NCBI RefSeq assembly: GCF_021513255.1
Contig: NZ_CP090977.1
Coordinates: 3,224,001-3,288,000, forward strand
DNA: 64,000 nucleotides
Reading direction: 5' to 3'
From: Planococcus sp. 107-1
GTDB lineage: Bacteria > Bacillota > Bacilli > Bacillales_A > Planococcaceae
The notes under the pieces were generated by a model, which was not told the origin of the DNA, did not search any database, and worked only from the letters and a program-made list of their open reading frames with translations. The translations under genes were made by a program, and so were the position numbers. This document shows, one piece after another, positions 18,052 through 51,565 of this stretch; positions within the stretch are counted from its first letter, which is position 1; each line of letters begins with the position of its first letter.

Positions 18052-19455
18052 TCATTTAATTTTCTGCAGACCTTCAACAATCTCCAACATCTCCGCCGAA
18101 TCGATCGTACGGAAATCGAGGCAGACTTTTTCATCTTCAATCCGGGCAATGACCGGTGGGCGGGCATTTCGCATTTTTTTGGAAAGCTGCTCGGCGGAAT
18201 AGCGCGCGTGGGATATAGCCGCGATGCAAGTCGGCAATTCTACGCCGGGCATCGTGCCTCCGCCTATTTGCGAAACACTTTCTCTAATATCGATTTGGAA
18301 TGTGTCTGCCTGGAGCGCCATTTCAGCTGCAAAATCTTCAGTTTGTTTTTGGATTTTCTCGTAAGGTTTCATGATATCCCGGACCGTCGGAAGTTCGCGG
18401 GTCTTCATTTCGCCGGATAGATACGCTTTCACTGTTTCTTCCAAAGCAGCAAAACTCATTTTATCCACTCTTAAAACGCGCGCCAGTTGATGTTTTTTTA
18501 ATCGGTCGATCAATTCCTTTTTCCCTGCAATAATGCCGGCCTGCGGTCCTCCAAGCAATTTGTCTCCGCTGAATGACACCAAGTCCACTCCCGCTTGGAT
18601 CACTTCTTTGACTAGCGGCTCATCTCCGATTCCGTGCTTTTTGAAATCATATAAAGCCCCGCTCCCCAAATCTTCGTAGAACACCAACCCATCGTTATTG
18701 TTTTTTAATTCCACAAGCGCCTGAGTTTCTACATTTTCGGTAAAGCCGATCATTTTAAAATTGCTGGTATGGACTTTCATCACCATCGCGGTTTCTTCCG
18801 ATAACGCATTCTCGTAATCGGCTCGATGTGTTTTATTCGTGGTGCCGACTTCGACCAAATGCGCTCCGCTTTCCTCCATGATGGAAGATACGCGGAAAGA
18901 GCCGCCGATTTCGACTAATTGCCCTCTGGAAACAATCACTTCACGGCCCTTTGCCAGGGCAGACAGCACCAAAAACACTGCCGCTGCGTTATTGTTCACG
19001 ACCATCGCCGCTTCCGCTCCGGTCGCTTCTTTCAATAATTCCTCGATAATGTCGTGGCGTGACCCTCTTTTTCCGTCTGCCACTTGATATTCCAAATTCG
19101 AATAATGTCTGGCTGTCCTTGCGACATGTTCTACTGCCCGTTCACTCAGTTTCGAACGCCCTAAATTCGTATGAAGGACCGTACCCGTCCCGTTGATGAC
19201 TCTCATCAGCCGGTCCTCATTCCACTTCGCGGCTTTTCTTTCAGCATTGCCAAAGATCAGTTCCGGAAAGTCCTGGTTTTCAGGTTCGTAAGGCAATTTG
19301 CCGTAAAGCAGCCGTTCACGCAGTGCCTGGACTTCCTGTTGGATGAATTTCGTCGCCTGTCCTGCAGTCAGCTCGTATTCGGCTATCAACCCGGCAAACC
19401 GTTCGTCTTTCTGCAATTCATGGACCGGCGGAATTTCACGAAGATAATCTCTCAT
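18052..19455 (-). CDS. selA: L-seryl-tRNA(Sec) selenium transferase SelA
   Basis: SelA is a PLP enzyme that converts Ser-tRNA(Sec) to Sec-tRNA(Sec) with selenophosphate from SelD. The 467-residue protein has the normal length and family landmarks: RVINGTGTVLHTNLGRS, AAMVVNNNAAAVFL, and the PLP-lysine region VSFSGDKLLGGPQAGIIAG. A good GAGGAA ribosome binding site precedes the ATG. It lies 30 bases after the end of selB and is the second gene of a selB-selA operon. The frame is intact. With selB, selC and selD nearby, the window holds the complete bacterial selenocysteine incorporation set. Confidence 0.96.
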   Translation of the reverse strand: MRDYLREIPPVHELQKDERFAGLIAEYELTAGQATKFIQQEVQALRERLLYGKLPYEPENQDFPELIFGNAERKAAKWNEDRLMRVINGTGTVLHTNLGRSKLSERAVEHVARTARHYSNLEYQVADGKRGSRHDIIEELLKEATGAEAAMVVNNNAAAVFLVLSALAKGREVIVSRGQLVEIGGSFRVSSIMEESGAHLVEVGTTNKTHRADYENALSEETAMVMKVHTSNFKMIGFTENVETQALVELKNNNDGLVFYEDLGSGALYDFKKHGIGDEPLVKEVIQAGVDLVSFSGDKLLGGPQAGIIAGKKELIDRLKKHQLARVLRVDKMSFAALEETVKAYLSGEMKTRELPTVRDIMKPYEKIQKQTEDFAAEMALQADTFQIDIRESVSQIGGGTMPGVELPTCIAAISHARYSAEQLSKKMRNARPPVIARIEDEKVCLDFRTIDSAEMLEIVEGLQKIK

Positions 19456-19485: not shown

Positions 19486-21382
19486 CTATGATTCAGTCCA
19501 TTTTCTCTGTTCATCTGTTCGGACTGTTATTTTCAATTCATCCAGCAATTCTAAAAACGGGATTAAGTATTTTCTTGAAACGCCAAGAACGTCTTTTGCT
19601 TGTTTTAGATTGAAGGCTCCACCTGTCGCCTCTTTCAGCTTAGCTATGGAATAATCCAAAGCTGAATGATGGATCAAAACCTCTTCTGTCAGGCGATAAG
19701 CCTTCCCTGTCTGAAGAAGATAAAATGTCAGATCCAGCAATTCCTGTTTCGGCACAGGTGAGCCGGCTGAATAACTGTCCCATTTTTCTGCTTGGAGTCC
19801 ATCTTTTTGGAGCGCTGCAATCATCTGTTCCATCCGCGTTTTCCACTGTTTTGGAAGATGCGGCATAAATGAACCGAGTGCGATAAACTGGTCCGCTTTT
19901 TTCAATGCGCCTTCTCCGCCATTTTATCCAATGTGTATTCAATAAACAACTTCGGATAAACAGTGCTGAATGCCTGAACAAGCTCCGCTTTCCCTTGTCC
20001 CTGCCTCATCGGATGCATTTCATGGAAATGATTTAACCGTTCTGTTAATTCATCGGCTAATTTGATAAAAGATTTAAGCAGGCTATATCGCTGATTTCCG
20101 ATTTCAAGCACTGTACCATTAGCTAAGAGCTCGTTGACCGTATCTTTCAGCACAGATTCATCAAGGGATGTTTGCTGGATCAGTTCTTTGAAATCCAGTA
20201 CGACGTATTTTTGCAGCACATCGGCTAAAAGATCTTCCGGCGTCCCTTCTTTTATCTTCTGCAGCATCGCGATCGTCTCTTCCCCGAAACGGTATTTGCC
20301 GCCTTTCGGCTGAATTATCCAACCTCCGCCAAGCGTTTCGACCGGTGTCGGCCGGCGCAAGATGAACCGGTCGCCGCGGCGCACCACGATTTCTTCGTCA
20401 AGCCGGATTTGGCACAGCACTTCGCTTTCGCTTTGCGCGAGTTCATTGCGGTCGAAAAAGACGATTTTGCCCATCACTTCCGAGGTTCCCGTATGAATTT
20501 TGACCGGAGCCCGCTGCTTTAATGGAACAAATGGGCTATCCACGAGTTCTAACGCAATATCAAGCGTGTCCGTCACAAGAAAGTGTTCGGATGATACGAG
20601 TACGTCTCCGCGCAAAATTTCATCTTTTTCAATCCCGCCGAGATTAATCGCCGTGCGCTGGCCGGCACGCGCAAACTCCTGCTCTTCATTATGAACTTGA
20701 ATTTGGCGCGCTTTTACACTCGCGCCTTTTGGCAGAACAGTCAACTGGCTTCCCTTTTGGACGGCGCCTTCATAAATCGTGCCTCTGACTACGGTCCCTT
20801 GGCCTTGAACCGAAAAAACCTGGTCAATCGGCAAACGGAAAGATCCGTATGCGTCACGAAGCTGCACTTGTTTTAATTCCTCGGAAATGGCCCCTTTCAA
20901 ATCCTCGATGCCTTTCCCAGACAAGCTGTCGACTAAGACATAGGGGGCTTCATCAAAAATGGTGCCCGCTAACCGGTCCCGAATGTCCTCTTCAACAAGT
21001 TCGAGCATGACTTCATCGACCCGGTCGATTTTCGAAATCGCTACAATGCAGCGCTTGATGCCGAGGAATTGAAGAATTTCAAGGTGTTCTTCCGTCTGCG
21101 GCATCACGCCTTCATCCGCTGCCACGACCAGAACAACCAAGTCGATGCCTGCGACGCCTGCAATCATTTGACGGATGAATTTTTCATGCCCAGGCACATC
21201 GACAATCGAAACATGGGTGCCATCTTCCGTTTGGAGCGGCGCATAGCCTGGTTCGATGGAAATGCCCGCTCTTTTTCCTCTTTCAATCGGTCCGTATCAA
21301 CGTTTGTCAGGGCTTTCGTCAACGTGGTCTTCCCGTGGTCAATATGCCCTGCCATTCCGATCGTATAATAAGTTTCGGCCAT
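19486..21382 (-). CDS. selB: Selenocysteine-specific elongation factor SelB, with two single-base frame breaks
   Basis: SelB delivers Sec-tRNA to UGA codons marked by a SECIS hairpin. The start [20 protein letters not shown] gives the G1 loop, and [10 protein letters not shown] the G3 motif. The C-terminal winged helices ([36 protein letters not shown]) bind the SECIS. Two frame breaks are seen: near 21264-21267, where a G run after KEEKER is one base short (expected continuation [10 protein letters not shown]), and near 19906-19915, after DKMAEK, again one G short. Restoring both joins three open segments into 632 residues, a normal SelB length. Sequencing indels are the likely cause, since a non-functional SelB would make the rest of the intact machinery useless. 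It is the first gene of the selB-selA operon and diverges from selC. Confidence 0.93.
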
Positions 21383-21524
21383 TGCCTTCACACACTTTCT
21401 CTGATTGATTCGTATCTTTACTTTAAGCTTTGGCGAGTGCGTATTCAAGGAAAGGAATTCACGTAGAAATCCGCTTTGTTGCACTCCTCGTTTTTTCGTT
21501 ATAAACTGAAACAGGTTCATCTAT

Positions 21525-21621
21525 GGGGTTGGATGGGTGACTGGTGTCTTCCTGGGTCTTCAAAACCCTGAGGGGCCTGCGTGCCAGGCTCGGTGGGTTC
21601 GATTCCCACACAATCCCGCCA
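21525..21621 (+). tRNA. selC: tRNA-Sec (anticodon UCA)
   Basis: A 97-nt tRNA with the anticodon loop CTTCAAA (anticodon TCA) inside a GGGT/ACCC stem region, a T arm GTGGG-TTCGATT-CCCAC, and a long variable arm with stem GCCTG/CAGGC. The acceptor begins GGGGTTG and pairs with CAATCCC (one G-U), then discriminator G and an encoded CCA at 21619-21621. The oversized variable arm and UCA anticodon identify selenocysteine tRNA. It is divergent from selB and followed by its own terminator. Confidence 0.95.
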
Positions 21622-21635
21622 TACATAGTTAGTGG

Positions 21636-21659
21636 AAACCGCCTGCGGGCGGTTTTTTA
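21636..21659 (+). terminator. Terminator of selC
   Basis: A perfect 8-bp stem, AAACCGCC/GGCGGTTT with loop TGCG, is followed by T residues. Confidence 0.92.
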
Positions 21660-21824
21660 TTTTTTATTTTGAATCTGCTTGGCATACTTAAAACTTTTCC
21701 TTTTCAGTGCACTAAAGCATTAAAAGTGACAAATAAGCATGAATTCATGATAATTGGAAGAGGAATTTCTATTCTGTATTTCCTCAACCATGCTCGAATT
21801 TGAGTAGATGAAGGACTGAAAAGC

Positions 21825-22820
21825 ATGAAAATTATTTTAGCTTCACCTAATTTTCCTCAGCCCCGTGGAAATACGGTAACCGTCCAGCGAATTTCCGATA
21901 ATCTGCAGAAGCTCGGGGTTGAATCAGTGATCATCTCTACAACCGATGACCGTTCTGCACAGTCGCTTCCCGAAGCTGATCTTGTGCATGGATTCCATGC
22001 CTACCAGTTTTATCAGTTTATGAAGAAATTAGCAGCTCCGCCCAAAAGATATGTCGTCACTTTGACCGGAACTGATCTGAACCTCGACTTATTCGATAAG
22101 GATAAGCGGAATGATGTCCTTTCTTCTTTAAGAGGCGCTTCGGCTGTGCATGTTTTTGATGCTCAGGCTGCGGGCATACTAGTAGAAGAATTACCTGAAA
22201 TCGCCGAGAAGATTTCGGTCATCGCTCAAGGCAATAGTGTTTTTTCGGATTCGGATGCTCCTGCATTGAAAGAGCCGGGTACTTTTCTCTTCATTCTTCC
22301 GGCAGGCATCCGCAAAGTGAAAAATGTACCGGCAGCGATTGAAATGCTGGCAGAACTTCATAAATTGAAGCCGGAGATCCGGCTATGGATTGCGGGCCCG
22401 GTCCTTGAAGAGGACGAGGGCAAAACTGTTTTGGGACTTGTACAGAAACACAGCGGCTGGGTTTCTTACCTTGGCCAGCTTCCCCATTCTTCTATGGGGT
22501 CCCTTTACGAACAGGCAGACGTTCTGCTCAACACTTCCCTTGCTGAAGGCCAGCCTGCTGCGATTTTAGAAGCGATGGGTTATGGGTGCGCTGTATTGGT
22601 TTCCGACGTCCAAGGCAACAATGGCATTGTGTCCCATTTAGAAACAGGTTTGCTTTACAAGAACAAATCTGAATTTCTAGCGCATGCAAGGCGATTGATG
22701 GAAAATAGCGAACTAAGGCAAAATGTCGGGATGAATGCCAAAAAGCGGATTGCTGAACAGCATTCTGGCCAGAACGAGGCGGAAAAGTTTCTCGAAATTT
22801 ACAAAAAGATTTTAAATTGA
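21825..22820 (+). CDS. GT-B glycosyltransferase resembling selenosugar synthase SenB
   Basis: The 331-residue protein has the two-domain GT-B (GT4-like) layout. The N-terminal half has MKIILASPNFPQPRGNTVTV, a HGFHAYQFYQFM segment and RYVVTLTGTDLNLD. The C-terminal half has GQLPHSSMGSLYEQADVLLN, the EG...ILEAMGYG nucleotide-sugar motif and SDVQGNNGIV. From memory, this order (GN-x-x-T near the start, LTGTDL, LG-x-L-x-H, EG-x-x-x-ILEA, GN-x-G) matches SenB, which joins selenophosphate to a UDP-sugar in selenoneine biosynthesis. The gene ends 22 bases before selD, which makes selenophosphate, and the two share a transcript. No SenA-like gene is visible. A plain GT4 enzyme for cell-surface sugars is the alternative; the selenosugar role is inference from context and motif layout. 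Confidence 0.72.
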   Translation: MKIILASPNFPQPRGNTVTVQRISDNLQKLGVESVIISTTDDRSAQSLPEADLVHGFHAYQFYQFMKKLAAPPKRYVVTLTGTDLNLDLFDKDKRNDVLSSLRGASAVHVFDAQAAGILVEELPEIAEKISVIAQGNSVFSDSDAPALKEPGTFLFILPAGIRKVKNVPAAIEMLAELHKLKPEIRLWIAGPVLEEDEGKTVLGLVQKHSGWVSYLGQLPHSSMGSLYEQADVLLNTSLAEGQPAAILEAMGYGCAVLVSDVQGNNGIVSHLETGLLYKNKSEFLAHARRLMENSELRQNVGMNAKKRIAEQHSGQNEAEKFLEIYKKILN

Positions 22821-22842
22821 CTTATTAAAGGAGAGAATACAA

Positions 22843-23892
22843 ATGGCTGAAAAAGAAAACGTACGTTTAACGACTTTATCAACTAAAGGCGGCTGAGGCT
22901 GCAAAATTGGTCCTGAGGACCTGGCGCAGGTTCTGCGCCATTTACCGAGAAATGTGCAAGACCCTAATCTGCTTGTCGGCTTAGATACAGCTGATGATGC
23001 CGGTGTCTACAAAATCAACGACGAAGTCGCACTTGTGCAGACTTTGGACTTTTTCACACCGATTGTCGACGATCCTTATATGTTCGGGCAAATCGGTGCC
23101 GCAAATTCATTGAGCGACGTTTATGCCATGGGCGGAAAACCGCTGACGGTCATGAATATCGTTGCTTTCCCTATCAATACCTTGGATAAAAGCATCTTGG
23201 CAGATATTTTAGCCGGTGCTTCCGATAAAGTGAAAGAATCCGGCGCTACTTTGGTCGGCGGCCACTCCATCGACGATAAGGAACCGAAGTTTGGCCTTTC
23301 AGTCACAGGCACGATCCATCCAGAGCGCATCCGTTCGAATGCGGGCGCAAAACCGGGCGACCGTTTGATTTTGACGAAACCGATTGGTGTCGGCATCTTA
23401 ACCACGGCTATCAAACAGGATATTTTGGAAAAAGAAGATTTGGAAGAAGTCATGAATGTTATGGCTGCTTTGAACAAGGATGCGGCAGAAGCGATGGAGA
23501 ATTACCAGGTCAACGCTTGTACCGATATTACTGGTTTCGGACTCCTTGGACACACCATGGAAATCGCAAAAGGCGGAAACGTCGGTGTCACGATTTCCAA
23601 TAAAGACGTTCCAGTCTTGTCCAAAGCAAGAGAACTTGCTGAGAAGCACGTGATTCCTGGCGGCACTTACAAGAATCATAGTTGGCTAGCGGACGACATC
23701 GATTACAGCAGCGATATCAGCAAACTCGATCAATTGATCCTTTGCGATGCTGTTACCTCGGGCGGCCTCTTGATTTCTGTTCCTGCTGATGAAGCGGATG
23801 CGCTGCAGCGCGACTTGTTGGAACGTAATGTCCAATCTTCTATTGTTGGAGAAGTGACAAGCGAAAATGCCGGAAGAATCCGCGTCATTTAA
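22843..23892 (+). CDS. selD: Selenide, water dikinase SelD, itself a selenoprotein (in-frame UGA = Sec18)
   Basis: SelD makes selenophosphate from selenide and ATP. AAAGGAGAG precedes the ATG at 22843. The frame reads MAEKENVRLTTLSTKGG, then TGA at 22894-22896, then GCKIGPEDLAQVLRHL and continues without break to 23892. The TGA sits at the catalytic position that is Cys or Sec in SelD proteins (GG-U/C-GCK), so it is selenocysteine and not a stop; a naive annotation would wrongly begin near 22954. Hairpins fitting a SECIS follow the UGA. Later landmarks include GLDTADDAGVYKI, DFFTPIVDDPY, GQIGAANSLSDVYAMGG and GGHSIDD. The full protein is 349 residues. Neighbours: the SenB-like gene upstream in the same operon and a terminator downstream. 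Confidence 0.96.
22909..22940 (+). promoter_or_regulatory. SECIS element(s) in selD
   Basis: Two adjacent hairpins follow the UGA. The first is GGTCC-TGA-GGACC at 22909-22921. The second is a perfect 8-bp stem TGGCGCAG-GTT-CTGCGCCA at 22922-22940. The second closely resembles the GCAGGUCUGC core remembered for the E. coli fdhF SECIS, with G first in the loop. Loop distances from the UGA are 17 and 33 bases. Confidence 0.75.
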
Positions 23893-23928
23893 TTTTCGAA
23901 GATCTATAGGGAATAATCTATTAACCCA

Positions 23929-23956
23929 CAAGGGCTCTACATGAGCCCTTGTTTTC
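23929..23956 (+). terminator. Terminator of the senB-like/selD operon
   Basis: A perfect 9-bp stem CAAGGGCTC/GAGCCCTTG with a 5-nt loop is followed by TTTT. Confidence 0.9.
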
Positions 23957-23994
23957 CGATTTAATGGAACCATACTAAAAATGAGGTGTGCAAG

Positions 23995-24903
23995 TTGAAA
24001 AAGTGGAATTTATTGGCATTCGCGTTGGTTTTGGCATTGATATTGTCAGCCTGCGGCAATGCTTCAGAAGATGAAAGTTCAGAGTCCGGCAATAAAGAAG
24101 AAGCGAAAGACGCCTTTACGATCGGCGTTATTCCCGTTCAAACTGAAGGCGAAATGGATACGGCCATGACAAAGCTTCAAACGCTTTTGAGCGAAGAGCT
24201 TGACCGCGAAGTTTCTATTGAGGTCTATCCAGACTATAACGGCGTTGTAGAAGCGATGAATTACGATCAAATCGATATGGCTTATTTAGGGCCTCTCACT
24301 TACGTTATCGCTGAAGCAAGCAGCAACGCAAAAGCGATTATCACGCAATTGATCGATGGGAAGCCTTATTACCATTCTTACATCATTACGCATAAAGACA
24401 GCCCGTTGACTTCCATGGAAGATTTGGTGGCAAATGCAGGGGAAACGAATTTTGCGTTTGGTGACCCGAACTCAACTTCAGGTGCATTGATCCCGATGAT
24501 TGAATTGCAGGACCAGGGTGTCTATAAATCAGAAGATGAGCATGATTTCGCTTCAGTGCGCTTTACAGGATCACACGATGCTACAGCATTAGCTGTCCAG
24601 AATAAACAAGTCGATGCAGCCGCGATTGACAGCGCCATTTATGATCAGCTGGTCGAATCCGGCAAAGTGGATGGCGAACAGTTTAAAACGATCTGGCAAT
24701 CTGAGGAATTGTTCCAATACCCTTGGGCAGTCCTTGAAAGCACAGACGAGGAAACGATCAAGACTTTACAGGAAACTTTCTTGGCTATCGAAGACCCTGA
24801 AATTTTAGGTGCATTCGGAGCAAGCGGGTTTACTGAAGCTTCAAACGAAGATTATGAAAGCATTAAACAGGCAGCAATTCAGCAGGGAATCATTAAAGAA
24901 TAG
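23995..24903 (+). CDS. PhnD-like substrate-binding lipoprotein of an ABC transporter
   Basis: The TTG at 23995 (MKKWNLLAF) is preferred, with GAGGTG seven bases upstream; a GTG three codons earlier lies within that site. A signal peptide ends in the lipobox LSAC, predicting a membrane-anchored lipoprotein. The mature protein is a PhnD/PtxB-family binding protein: FTIGVIPVQTEGEM, a YNGVVEAM segment, DMAYLGPLTYV and the ligand-loop signature FGDPNSTSGALIP. The family binds phosphonates, phosphite or related oxyanions. No phosphonate-degradation genes are seen in the window, while selenium genes lie immediately upstream, so the cargo is uncertain. It is the first gene of an operon with permease, ATPase and a deacetylase gene. 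Confidence 0.87.
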   Translation: MKKWNLLAFALVLALILSACGNASEDESSESGNKEEAKDAFTIGVIPVQTEGEMDTAMTKLQTLLSEELDREVSIEVYPDYNGVVEAMNYDQIDMAYLGPLTYVIAEASSNAKAIITQLIDGKPYYHSYIITHKDSPLTSMEDLVANAGETNFAFGDPNSTSGALIPMIELQDQGVYKSEDEHDFASVRFTGSHDATALAVQNKQVDAAAIDSAIYDQLVESGKVDGEQFKTIWQSEELFQYPWAVLESTDEETIKTLQETFLAIEDPEILGAFGASGFTEASNEDYESIKQAAIQQGIIKE

Positions 24904-24905
24904 AG

Positions 24906-25670
24906 TTGATCCGTGTGTGGTTTAAAAAAAGCAATTTCCTTACATTAGCTATACTGATCTTACTGGTGTTCTTCAGCATGCGGCTGACGGAATTCGATTT
25001 GTCGAAATTCAAGGATTTCCGCAATATGATCGACTTCTTGTCGCAATGGTTCCCGATGGACTTCTCTTTGCTTCCGAATATGGTGCAGGATACGCTTGAA
25101 ACCTTGGCAATGGCGTTCCTCGGGAGTGTCTTTGGTTTGATTATTGCCTTGCCGATCAGCTTCTTGGCTGCACGCAACACGTCGCCTTCACCGATTCTTT
25201 TCCAATTTTCGCGAATTGCGCTGAGCTTTGTACGCTCGATTCCGGAAATTGTGTTCGGGTTGATTTTGCTGACCACTTTAGGCCTTGGACCATTCCCTGC
25301 CGTTATCGCGATTATGTTCCACAATATCGGCGTATTCGGAAAACTGATTTCGGAATTGATCGAAGCTGCCGATCCTGGTCCGCAAGAAGCGATGAAAGCA
25401 GTCGGCTCGAAAACTTGGGTGGCGAATCTTTTCAGCATTTTGCCGCAAATTTGGCCGAATGTGCTGTCTCAATTTTTCTATCGCTTCGAAGTGGCCATCC
25501 GCACTTCCCTGATTCTCGGATTTATCGGCGGCGGCGGAATCGGACAGCGGCTGTTCAATGATTTCAAGACCTTCCAATACTCTTCCGTTTCACTTGATGT
25601 GCTGATCATCATGATTATGGTTATTATCATCGACTTCTTGGCCAGCTCCATCCGGAAGCGGATTATATGA
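24906..25670 (+). CDS. PhnE-like ABC transporter permease
   Basis: This 254-residue membrane protein has about six hydrophobic segments and starts at a TTG three bases after the binding-protein stop, indicating tight coupling. The EAA-type cytoplasmic loop that contacts the ATPase is visible as ELIEAADPGPQEAMKAVGSK, a hallmark of PhnE permeases. LRSIPEIVFGL-like and GFIGGGGIGQRLFND segments are also characteristic. Only one PhnE gene is present, whereas many homologous systems have two; the transporter could be a homodimer. Substrate as for the neighbouring binding protein. Confidence 0.88.
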   Translation: MIRVWFKKSNFLTLAILILLVFFSMRLTEFDLSKFKDFRNMIDFLSQWFPMDFSLLPNMVQDTLETLAMAFLGSVFGLIIALPISFLAARNTSPSPILFQFSRIALSFVRSIPEIVFGLILLTTLGLGPFPAVIAIMFHNIGVFGKLISELIEAADPGPQEAMKAVGSKTWVANLFSILPQIWPNVLSQFFYRFEVAIRTSLILGFIGGGGIGQRLFNDFKTFQYSSVSLDVLIIMIMVIIIDFLASSIRKRII

Positions 25671-25683
25671 AGGAGGCAGAATC

Positions 25684-26454
25684 ATGATTGAAATAAAGAA
25701 TTTATCGGTGCTTTATGCCGGAAATACCGAAGAGTCGCTTTCAGATGTGAATCTTTCTCTTCAAAAAGGAGATTTTATCTGCGTACTCGGAAAAAGCGGT
25801 GCCGGGAAATCGACTTTTATCCGCTGCATCAACGGTTTGCAAAAACCGACCGGCGGAGAAATTCTCCTGGACGGAAAAACGATCACTTATGCAAAAGAAG
25901 AAGATCTGCGGAAAATACGCCGGGAAATGGGAATGATTTTTCAGCATTTCAATTTGATTCCCCGTCTCAGCGTTTTGCAAAATGTCATGACGGGAACATT
26001 CGGCTACCGCAATTCTTTTAAAAATCTTTTCGGCATGTTTACGGCTGAAGAATTAAAGCGGGCTAGAAGCGTCATTGCCGAAGTCGGATTAGCTGAAATG
26101 GCCACTCGACGGATTGAAAATCTAAGCGGCGGCCAAAAACAGCGCGTCGGCATTGCACGGGCACTTGTCCAGCAGCCGCGTGTTTTGCTCGGCGATGAAC
26201 CGGTCGCAAGTCTAGATCCCGGAACATCTGACCGCATCTTTACGCTATTGAAAGAAATGCATGAACGCCTTGGACTGTTGACCATTATTAATGTCCACGA
26301 CATTGAACTGGCCAAGCGCTACGCGACACGTATTGTGGCATTAAAAGACGGAAAAGTGATTTTTGATGGGCTTCCGAAAGATTTCAAGGAAGCCGAGTAC
26401 CAGGAAACTTACGAATCCCAATCGGCAGATGCATACTTTGGCGCCGAAATCTGA
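25684..26454 (+). CDS. PhnC-like ABC transporter ATP-binding protein
   Basis: All ABC ATPase motifs are present in 256 residues: Walker A GKSGAGKST, Q-loop FQHFNLIPRL, signature LSGGQKQR, Walker B VLLGDEPVASLD and the switch His in INVHDIELA. The sequence NLIPRLSVLQNVMTG is typical of the PhnC subgroup. AAGGAGG precedes the ATG. It energises the PhnE-like permease. The stop codon is followed after 20 bases by the ATG of the deacetylase gene with its own strong ribosome binding site. Confidence 0.9.
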   Translation: MIEIKNLSVLYAGNTEESLSDVNLSLQKGDFICVLGKSGAGKSTFIRCINGLQKPTGGEILLDGKTITYAKEEDLRKIRREMGMIFQHFNLIPRLSVLQNVMTGTFGYRNSFKNLFGMFTAEELKRARSVIAEVGLAEMATRRIENLSGGQKQRVGIARALVQQPRVLLGDEPVASLDPGTSDRIFTLLKEMHERLGLLTIINVHDIELAKRYATRIVALKDGKVIFDGLPKDFKEAEYQETYESQSADAYFGAEI

Positions 26455-26474: not shown

Positions 26475-27113
26475 ATGATTAAAAGCCCTTGAGCAGTGGA
26501 TTACACCAGAGTCGTGTACGGCTCTTCCAACCCGGAAATTGTAACTAGCCTAAAACCTGATCCAGCTGTAAAATCGGTCGCCCTCACGTTTGACGATGGC
26601 CCGAGCCGGGTGTTGCCGGAAATTCTGGATATCTTAAAACAAGAAAATGTTCCCGCTGCGTTCTTTTGGCAGACACGCCTTCTCCACCCGGAACGTCCGT
26701 GGAAAAGAGTTTTGGATGAAGGCCATTTAATTGGAACGCATACGGTAAAGCATAAAAACCTGACGGCTCTTTCCTACGAGGAACAGTACCGTGATATCCG
26801 AAACAGCCTATCAAAAATCAGTGAAATCACTGGAGCAAAACCTATTTATTTCCGTCCTCCTTTCGGTCAATTCAATGATGATACCTTAAAGGCCGCACGC
26901 GAATTGAATTTAAAAACCGTTATGTGGCGAGTGGCTTCGATGGACTGGGAGCTACAAAAGAATCCCGAAAATCTAGTGACCACTGTTGTTGACAATTTAG
27001 AGGACGGTGCGATTATTCTGCTCCATGAACTTCAGCATACCGTTCAGATGCTGCCAAAATTGATCCAAGCCATACGCGAGCAAGGCTATACGTTCAAATC
27101 ATTGGATGCTTAA
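26475..27113 (+). CDS. NodB-fold polysaccharide deacetylase with an in-frame UGA at codon 6 (candidate selenoprotein or nonsense codon)
   Basis: The catalytic domain is intact: the TFDDGPS motif, zinc ligands in GTHTVKH, YFRPPFGQFN, a late VASMDW, and LLHELQHT. No signal peptide is seen, so the roughly 212-residue protein seems cytosolic. The best start is the ATG at 26475, with AAAAGGAG eight bases upstream. It reads MIKSP, then TGA (26490-26492), then AVDYTRVVYGSSNPEIV in the same frame. Options: (a) UGA is selenocysteine, supported by a SECIS-like hairpin at 26508-26525 and full Sec machinery next door; (b) a TGG Trp codon has changed to TGA by mutation or error, as MIKSPWAVDY would be an ordinary sequence; (c) translation begins at GTG 26496, which has a poor ribosome binding site. 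The frame breaks elsewhere here are indels, not substitutions. It is the last gene of the PhnDCE-like operon. Confidence 0.8.
26508..26525 (+). promoter_or_regulatory. SECIS-like hairpin in deacetylase gene
   Basis: AGAGTCG-TGTA-CGGCTCT forms a 7-bp stem (one G-U) with a 4-nt loop having G in the second position. The loop begins 22 bases after the in-frame UGA. These features fit the loose bacterial SECIS consensus as I remember it, but such hairpins also arise by chance. Confidence 0.4.
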
Positions 27114-27129
27114 TGGATTTCTTCAACCG

Positions 27130-27174
27130 AAGAGGCCTGGAACTTTGTGTTTTTCAAAGTTCCAGGCCTCTTTA
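27130..27174. terminator. Bidirectional terminator
   Basis: A perfect 18-bp stem (27130-27147 with 27155-27172) with a 7-nt loop lies between the convergent deacetylase and racemase genes. Confidence 0.95.
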
Positions 27175-51215: not shown

Positions 51216-51317
51216 TATATAAACGCAAATAATCCAACGGAAAACAGCAGAAATCCACTGTTCCTTGCAGAGTACCTTCGTTATACCTCCCAGCTCCCGG
51301 AGAAGATCATAAACTTA

Positions 51318-51480
51318 TAACGAGGCAGGTCTCCTGGCTTGTGCTTCCTCCTACACTACGGCCTTCCCATCCATTGGACAGTGGTTTTCCATAGTTCGTC
51401 AGCACTTACAGTTGCGGGTACAGCTCCGGTTTTCACGGATTCCCTATTAAGCCTTTTCAGGCACCATCATTATCGGCGAC
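51318..51480 (-). promoter_or_regulatory. Cobalamin (B12) riboswitch
   Basis: Read on the minus strand, the conserved blocks occur in order: GGTGCCTGAAAAGGCTTAAT, AGGGAATCCGTG, CCGGAGCTGTACCCGCAACT, GTAAGTGCTGACGAA, CCACTG, ATGGGAAGG and the B12 box AGCCAGGAGACCTGCC. This is a standard cobalamin riboswitch. It faces the thioesterase-nrd operon and is followed by an intrinsic terminator, so cobalamin should switch the operon off. Confidence 0.95.
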
Positions 51481-51565
51481 ACTATATATAGTGTTCAAAA
51501 ATAAATATAAACACTAATTATTGTATTTATTTACTATAATCCAGCTTTGTGGATTTTACAAGCGA

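Follow-up and report, generated by a model that had tools for sequence, protein, structure and literature searches.

A 64,000-nucleotide stretch of the Planococcus sp. 107-1 genome (the window; positions 3224001-3288000 of a genome of 3.51 Mb in a single contig) carries a gene for a 331-residue GT4 glycosyltransferase (GT; 21825-22820, plus strand; its homologues are called the GT family) between the selenocysteine (Sec) genes selC and selD. Its place in a phylogenetic tree, its predicted pocket residues, and the genes around it lead us to regard GT as probably, if by no great degree, a selenium glycosyltransferase sister to SenB. It would combine selenophosphate and UDP-N-acetylglucosamine (UDP-GlcNAc) into 1-seleno-N-acetylglucosamine, from which 1-seleno-glucosamine would be made.

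Relationship of the glycosyltransferase to SenB

The initial annotation had likened GT to SenB on account of a series of motifs, all of which are present (GNTVT, LTGTDL, GQLPH, ILEA, and GNNG). The likeness is borne out by database searches, in which the best PDB matches of GT by phmmer and the top 11 Foldseek rows for its predicted fold are SenB, and further by the tree and most of the pocket residues described below. It does not extend to SenB proper: GT scores 78.3 bits against the NCBI SenB model TIGR04348, below the cut-off of 300, and has EGQPAA in place of the SenB motif EGGAHV, and an identity as SenB was rejected on these two grounds. The two proteins are 21-24% identical in fold comparisons. 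The best NCBIfam match of GT, over its full length, is NF038229 ("GPMC system family 4 glycosyltransferase") with 291.6 bits, short of its curated cut-off of 400. On sequence evidence, GT is a relative (sister) of SenB and not a SenB.

Phylogenetic analysis drew on 101 GT family proteins from overlapping sets, in which some genomes occur twice. L184 (frameshifted) and L208 (starting inside its gene) were omitted, and thinning at 72% identity left 61 of the 101 for the first tree and for the pocket comparison. A second tree combined 31 of these 61, thinned by hand, with three SenB, 16 of 18 ordinary GT4 controls from the same genus, one partial Bacillus subtilis BshA, and one homologue from a Streptomyces plasmid. 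There the GT family, SenB, and the Streptomyces row lie on one side of a branch supported at 99/98, and the 16 ordinary GT4 enzymes lie on the other, with BshA placed among them. The first, larger tree (83 rows, without BshA) gives the same split with an SH-aLRT of 95. The partial B. subtilis sequence was used as BshA because none of the 10 controls scanned (of 18) exceeded the BshA cut-off and a plasmid search with one control returned no match. Best matches and tree side are both with SenB; a position among ordinary cell-surface GT4 enzymes, which the initial annotation had considered as the opposite outcome, was not seen. Since SenB has a long branch, with 2.3 changes per column, and the GT family encloses the Streptomyces row, "sister" is the most that should be claimed.

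The Streptomyces homologue, a distant one of the same clade with GN-x-x-T and GGTD motifs, is carried by a plasmid of Streptomyces sp. NBC_01546 (L214, 9962-10972). It adjoins genes for an alpha/beta hydrolase, a HAD hydrolase, and an MFS transporter, and no selD was found on the plasmid. We take it to be similar to human GLT1D1, and we know of no enzyme of mammalian selenosugar synthesis; among the matches listed in a literature search on GLT1D1 and selenium, no paper was on such a role by its title. Plasmids yielded no close GT orthologue, since the matches to nine records were weak, with 30% identity for the best, and no relative of GT was found on viral contigs.

For SenB, N20, H58, R61, T83, T85, and R155 have been proposed as the residues that bind selenophosphate; changing two or all three of N20, T83, and T85 to alanine destroys activity, and splitting of the Se-P bond requires K158 (PMC10891094 and PMC10702425). 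Among the 61 GT family rows, N20, R155, K158, E231, and E239 are invariant, while T83 and T85 are each kept in 60 and T23 in 58; the GT of the window has all of them (SenB numbering). The H58 position holds H in 44 rows and N in 17. K158, E231, and E239 are general GT4 features, being present in 15, 18, and 18 of the 18 ordinary controls, whereas N20 is found in only three of these, T85 in two, and T83 in none. The motif pair GN-x-x-[TS] and [TG]G[TS]D[LIV] occurs in 100 of the 101 GT family proteins (the remaining one begins inside its gene), in all three SenB, and in the Streptomyces homologue, but in 0/18 controls. SenB favours UDP-GlcNAc as donor, and its V157 contacts the donor N-acetyl group (PMC10891094); this position is V or I in 61/61 rows. 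The EGQPAA variant is typical of the family, with Q at the G233 position in 55 of the 61.

Several observations weigh against a SenB-like function. The R61 position varies: a basic residue (R, K, or H) stands there in 42 of the 61 rows but R itself in only 18, and the GT of the window has Q, which does not fit a full SenB pocket. In the GT family profile match BshA stands above SenB, and in VIA-align SenB is tied with BshA, MshA, and others as structural match of GT. A non-selenium acceptor is therefore possible, and the structural closeness of the predicted fold by itself does not decide between SenB and BshA. The main rival is a BshA/BshB-like pair that joins glucosamine to a non-selenium acceptor, for example malate or another organic acid, to supply a small thiol or carrier that helps in handling selenide; SelD would then be a mere regulon neighbour. 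The deacetylase partner of Syntrophomonas-type relatives, a PIG-L protein, would suit this explanation: its nearest NCBIfam model is BshB1 (100.5-124.7 bits in the four proteins scanned, below the cut-off of 182.5). On the other hand, a tree forced to group the GT family with BshA, represented by the partial B. subtilis sequence, is rejected (p-AU 3.2e-5), and BshA chains match the family profile only from residue 44-49, SenB from residue 3-4. BshA also has H (LHGTD) where SenB and the GT family have T83 (TGTD), and no other conserved gene of the block described below seems able to complete a thiol. We consider such a pair unlikely and continue to prefer a selenium glycosyltransferase.

The selD-linked gene block and its deacetylase

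Rightward from 18052, selA and selB on the minus strand are followed on the plus strand by selC, GT, selD, a PhnD-PhnE-PhnC-type ATP-binding cassette (ABC) importer, and a NodB-type deacetylase:

18052..19455, minus strand: selA, L-seryl-tRNA(Sec) selenium transferase (TIGR00474, 562.3 bits, cut-off 267.9)
19902..21400, minus strand: selB, two overlapping open reading frames (ORFs) in different frames, with a break near 21200 (ORF calls)
21525..21617, plus strand: selC, tRNA-Sec (Rfam RF01852, 65 bits, gathering score 47; ARAGORN anticodon TCA)
21634..21657, plus strand: terminator-like hairpin after selC (pattern scan; -15.4 kcal/mol, z -3.6)
21825..22820, plus strand: GT4 glycosyltransferase, sister of SenB and proposed Se-glycosyltransferase (ORF; profiles, tree, and pocket as above; AF2 pLDDT 95.2)
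22843..23892, plus strand: selD, selenophosphate synthetase (TIGR00476, 420.9 bits with TGA read as U, cut-off 125)
23928..23952, plus strand: terminator-like hairpin after selD (-18.3 kcal/mol, z -6.0)
23986..24903, plus strand: PhnD-type substrate-binding lipoprotein of the ABC importer, with a selenium oxyanion as its proposed substrate (PF12974, 247.3 bits; TIGR01098, 224.6 bits, cut-off 112.05)
24906..25670, plus strand: PhnE-type permease (TIGR01097, 266.6 bits, cut-off 216.7)
25684..26454, plus strand: PhnC-type ATPase (TIGR02315, 307.1 bits, cut-off 266.1)
26496..27113, plus strand: NodB-type polysaccharide deacetylase, 205 residues, without apparent signal peptide, proposed selenosugar N-deacetylase (PF01522, 120.4 bits, cut-off 23.1)
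27129..27173, plus strand: strong terminator-like hairpin of 19 pairs past the deacetylase, at the end of the block (pattern scan)

ORF, tRNA, and selD calls agree on the arrangement initially annotated, with GT between selC and selD and the selD ATG at 22843 lying 22 bases past the GT stop. Both genes also lie, as had been noted, between the hairpins that follow selC and selD, from which we infer a single transcript for GT and selD. The 8 sites found by the terminator pattern scan of the window are at the level of shuffled sequence (mean 7.1), and the hairpin after selD is absent from that list; a promoter-like site upstream of GT (21726-21754) is likewise at chance level (9 in the window, shuffle mean 7.5). 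The in-frame TGA of selD at 22894-22896 (codon 18, context GG-TGA-GCK) is taken as selenocysteine and agrees with the SelD motif GG(U/C)GCK. The selenocysteine locus had been called complete, which is true of the intact selA, selC, and selD but not of selB, split over two frames in this assembly. In Planococcus ruber (L132), the closest named relative found for this locus (86% identity for GT and 97% for SelD), selB is a single ORF of 678 residues. Given the split and the lower assembly completeness (94.28, versus 99-100 in the other 45 searched genomes of the genus), sequencing indels are likely. Elsewhere in the window lies a cobalamin riboswitch (51307-51484, minus strand; RF00174, 100.9 bits).

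The gene context was compared in the best 80 of 307 relatives, comprising 55 Bacillales-type loci and 25 others; because some species occur in more than one set, the counts are not independent of one another. selD is next to GT, downstream and on the same strand, in 47 of the 55 Bacillales-type loci (and in the examined stretch in 49), a gene order far beyond chance, and the lack of linkage that the initial annotation had envisaged was not seen. A PhnE-like permease is present in 49 of the 55 and a NodB-type deacetylase (or deacetylase-like gene) in 50, while selA or selB is present in only 23. When 54 Bacillales-type loci are clustered, GT, selD, phnD, phnE, phnC, and the deacetylase each occur in 47-53, selA in 23, selB in 22, and any further gene in 14 or fewer. 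Within Bacillales, the order GT-selD-phnDEC-deacetylase is conserved as a block. The selD of GT loci has the TGA in all 48 loci with a readable site (L162 gave no reading), one of them as AG-TGA-GCK. A typical Bacillaceae block, with a GT 55% identical to that of the window, is found in a record titled Pseudomonas sp. ISL-84 (L165), whose organism name looks wrong or whose assembly is mixed.

The linkage to selD makes the PhnDEC-type importer a candidate selenium importer. Its lipoprotein is below the cut-offs for PhnD (TIGR03431, 211.6 bits versus 261.1) and for the "putative selenate" model TIGR04553 (162.1 versus 250). In Vulcanibacillus modesticaldus the importer accompanies GT and the deacetylase with no selD in the 21 kb around GT, and the genome has two TGA-type selD genes.

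The other 25 loci come from Syntrophomonas and its kin, other Bacillota, one Nitrospirota, and one deltaproteobacterial genome, and show no selD in the examined stretch, which is short in several. A deacetylase is nonetheless adjacent to GT in 20 of the 25: the PIG-L protein lies directly upstream in 18, and a different, larger, weakly PDA-like protein lies directly downstream in 2. Two of the three PDA-like members scanned are just over the PF01522 gathering score, and the third matches nothing. The pairing of GT with three apparent kinds of deacetylase points to an N-acetylhexosamine in the GT product.

It had been stated that no second enzyme is visible. In our reading this was mistaken, because SelD can play the part of SenC and the block contains a deacetylase, the likely second enzyme. 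The window deacetylase contains TFDDGP, H[ST]xxH, RPPFG, and LHE, which we take to be the NodB-type catalytic motifs. All five patterns tested are present in 33 of 47 Bacillales homologues, and TFDDGP in 44, preceded by 21-33 residues. With start codons called mechanically, none of the 47 has a hydrophobic N-terminus, the 15-residue Kyte-Doolittle mean being at most 0.77 before TFDDGP (in the first 20 residues for the other 3). The protein thus has no apparent signal peptide or anchor, and a soluble small substrate would fit it better than the cell wall.

Distribution of the GT family among selD genomes

Among the 46 genomes of the genus, GT, selD and tRNA-Sec over cut-off, and the deacetylase are all present in the same 24 (GT at no less than 396 bits, against at most 55 for the next best; deacetylase at least 282 bits, against at most 110 elsewhere). 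In 261 genomes of the order, GT is found in 27 and selD in 86, and the GT genomes are exactly those with a TGA-type selD; 0/59 other selD genomes have GT. These 59, which come from the window's family and whose selD lacks the TGA, presumably belong to selenouridine users. Co-occurrence in these two samples largely amounts to one block being present or absent together. Hypergeometric figures, which count every genome as an independent case, carry no weight in this comparison.

Genomes in which the two genes are separated provide a better test. In the 31 genomes whose GT locus shows no selD, a selD over cut-off is encoded elsewhere in 30, with a visible TGA in 28, the other two matches being partial. 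The sole GT genome without selD is a metagenome-assembled Bacillus with a frameshifted GT. selA is present in 31/31 GT genomes tried, seven of which also belong to the 31 without selD at the GT locus. In a phylum sample of 398 genomes, selD accompanies GT in 18/18 genomes, versus 260/398 overall, an association that is modest since the 18 fall into six families. The GT family is nearly restricted to selD genomes in these samples. Conversely, selD-positive genomes of the same class without GT exist (G503, G616, and G654), so the Sec machinery as such does not include GT. The restriction to Sec users could have a simple cause in the selenocysteine of SelD itself; alternatively, the GT product may serve selenium delivery. 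The many Bacillaceae blocks without selA, selB, or selC nearby had raised the idea of a stand-alone selenium trait without Sec, which was dropped in view of the TGA-type selD in the 48 readable loci and selA in all GT genomes tried.

This distribution bears on whether GT could be an ordinary surface-glycan enzyme which, with a cell-wall deacetylase, is carried in a mobile or co-inherited Sec block. Surface polymers are frequent substrates of GT4 enzymes and NodB-type deacetylases, and the block parts are indeed present or absent together in the window's genus. However, both the tree (16 ordinary GT4 enzymes of the genus) and the pocket (18) separate the GT family from such enzymes, and the deacetylases lack a hydrophobic N-terminus. 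GT also remains beside selD where selA and selB lie elsewhere, and nearly all genomes without selD next to GT still carry a selD. Tree, pocket, and gene context together disfavour an ordinary cell-surface GT4 enzyme, and we regard a surface-glycan role as improbable, the least probable of the alternatives weighed here. The selenium glycosyltransferase reading accounts better for these observations.

Proposed selenosugar pathway and comparison with known systems

In the pathway we propose, SelD would supply selenophosphate, the known product of its family. GT would move the N-acetylhexosamine of UDP-GlcNAc, or of a close UDP-N-acetylhexosamine, onto the selenium of selenophosphate with release of phosphate, giving 1-seleno-N-acetylglucosamine. 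The acetyl group would then be stripped by the block's terminal deacetylase, or in Syntrophomonas-type bacteria by the PIG-L deacetylase, to yield 1-seleno-glucosamine. BshA/BshB and MshA/MshB follow the same logic, but here selenium would be the nucleophile. The selenium source, perhaps selenite as a phosphite-like anion, might enter through the PhnDEC-type importer; this is the weakest step. Speculatively, the product could be a small selenol with which cells that use selenocysteine store or carry selenium or buffer their redox state. More tentatively than for GT itself, we suggest that many Sec-decoding Bacillota, with Nitrospirota and deltaproteobacterial relatives, may make a dedicated amino-selenosugar, 1-seleno-glucosamine, through the SenB-sister GT paired with a deacetylase of any of three interchangeable types.

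The selenosugar might instead be an intermediate of a longer pathway with later enzymes elsewhere in the genome, or have a role in detoxification or export of excess selenium. SenB acts as such an intermediate step in selenoneine synthesis (PMC10891094), and beyond the six block genes, selA, and selB no gene recurs in more than 14 of the 54 clustered loci. No SenA was seen in the block, where no further gene is conserved, and no genome-wide SenA search was made. The conserved deacetylase, on the contrary, suggests an amino sugar as the product, and we hold this explanation to be quite unlikely, behind the BshA/BshB-like pair. A 1-seleno-glucosamine end product is still preferred.

A 2026 review (PMC13188914) gives the known biological uses of selenium as Sec, selenouridine, a molybdoenzyme cofactor, selenoneine, and ovoselenol. 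As of 2024, SenB was the only functionally identified Se-glycosyltransferase, according to a paper adding two close SenB homologues (PMC10891094). For Slackia, the STRING partners of YedE include one glycosyltransferase, Shel_25140 (PMC5322559). A literature search covering titles and the starts of abstracts in openly licensed texts showed, among the matches listed, no description of a selD-linked glycosyltransferase with a deacetylase. The SenB-type Se-glycosyltransferase pathway and the nearby NF038229, with no stated function, are thus already known, and what appears new is this cluster, as a probable variant of that pathway. If the proposal is correct, it would add a class of selenometabolite to those of the review and provide a selenium-based parallel to the way in which bacillithiol and mycothiol synthesis begins. 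A second Se-glycosyltransferase clade, tied to SelD and a deacetylase by gene order and content, would offer a concrete predicted metabolite and a simple in vitro assay, and would link low-molecular-weight thiol pathways with selenium metabolism.

Three known systems can be set beside GT. The model name of NF038229, its best profile match, states no function, and the meaning of "GPMC" was not found, "GPMC system" being absent among the literature matches listed. Bacillithiol synthesis proceeds by GlcNAc transfer by BshA followed by de-N-acetylation, the same order of steps as proposed here; BshA has the same fold as GT, and BshB1 is nearest to the Syntrophomonas-type partner. Unlike BshA, however, GT reaches only 51.6 bits against the BshA model (cut-off 273.7) and resists grouping with it, and the Bacillales partner is NodB-type, a different Pfam family from PIG-L. 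With SenB (TIGR04348; PDB 8JJN and 8FBX), GT shares a sister-clade position, the GN-x-x-T and TGTD motifs, R155, K158, E231, and E239, the top Foldseek rows, and selenophosphate synthetase as a partner. It differs from SenB in its sub-threshold score and low identity, in EGQPAA and in the Q at R61, in having a deacetylase partner, and in its occurrence in Bacillota and Sec users.

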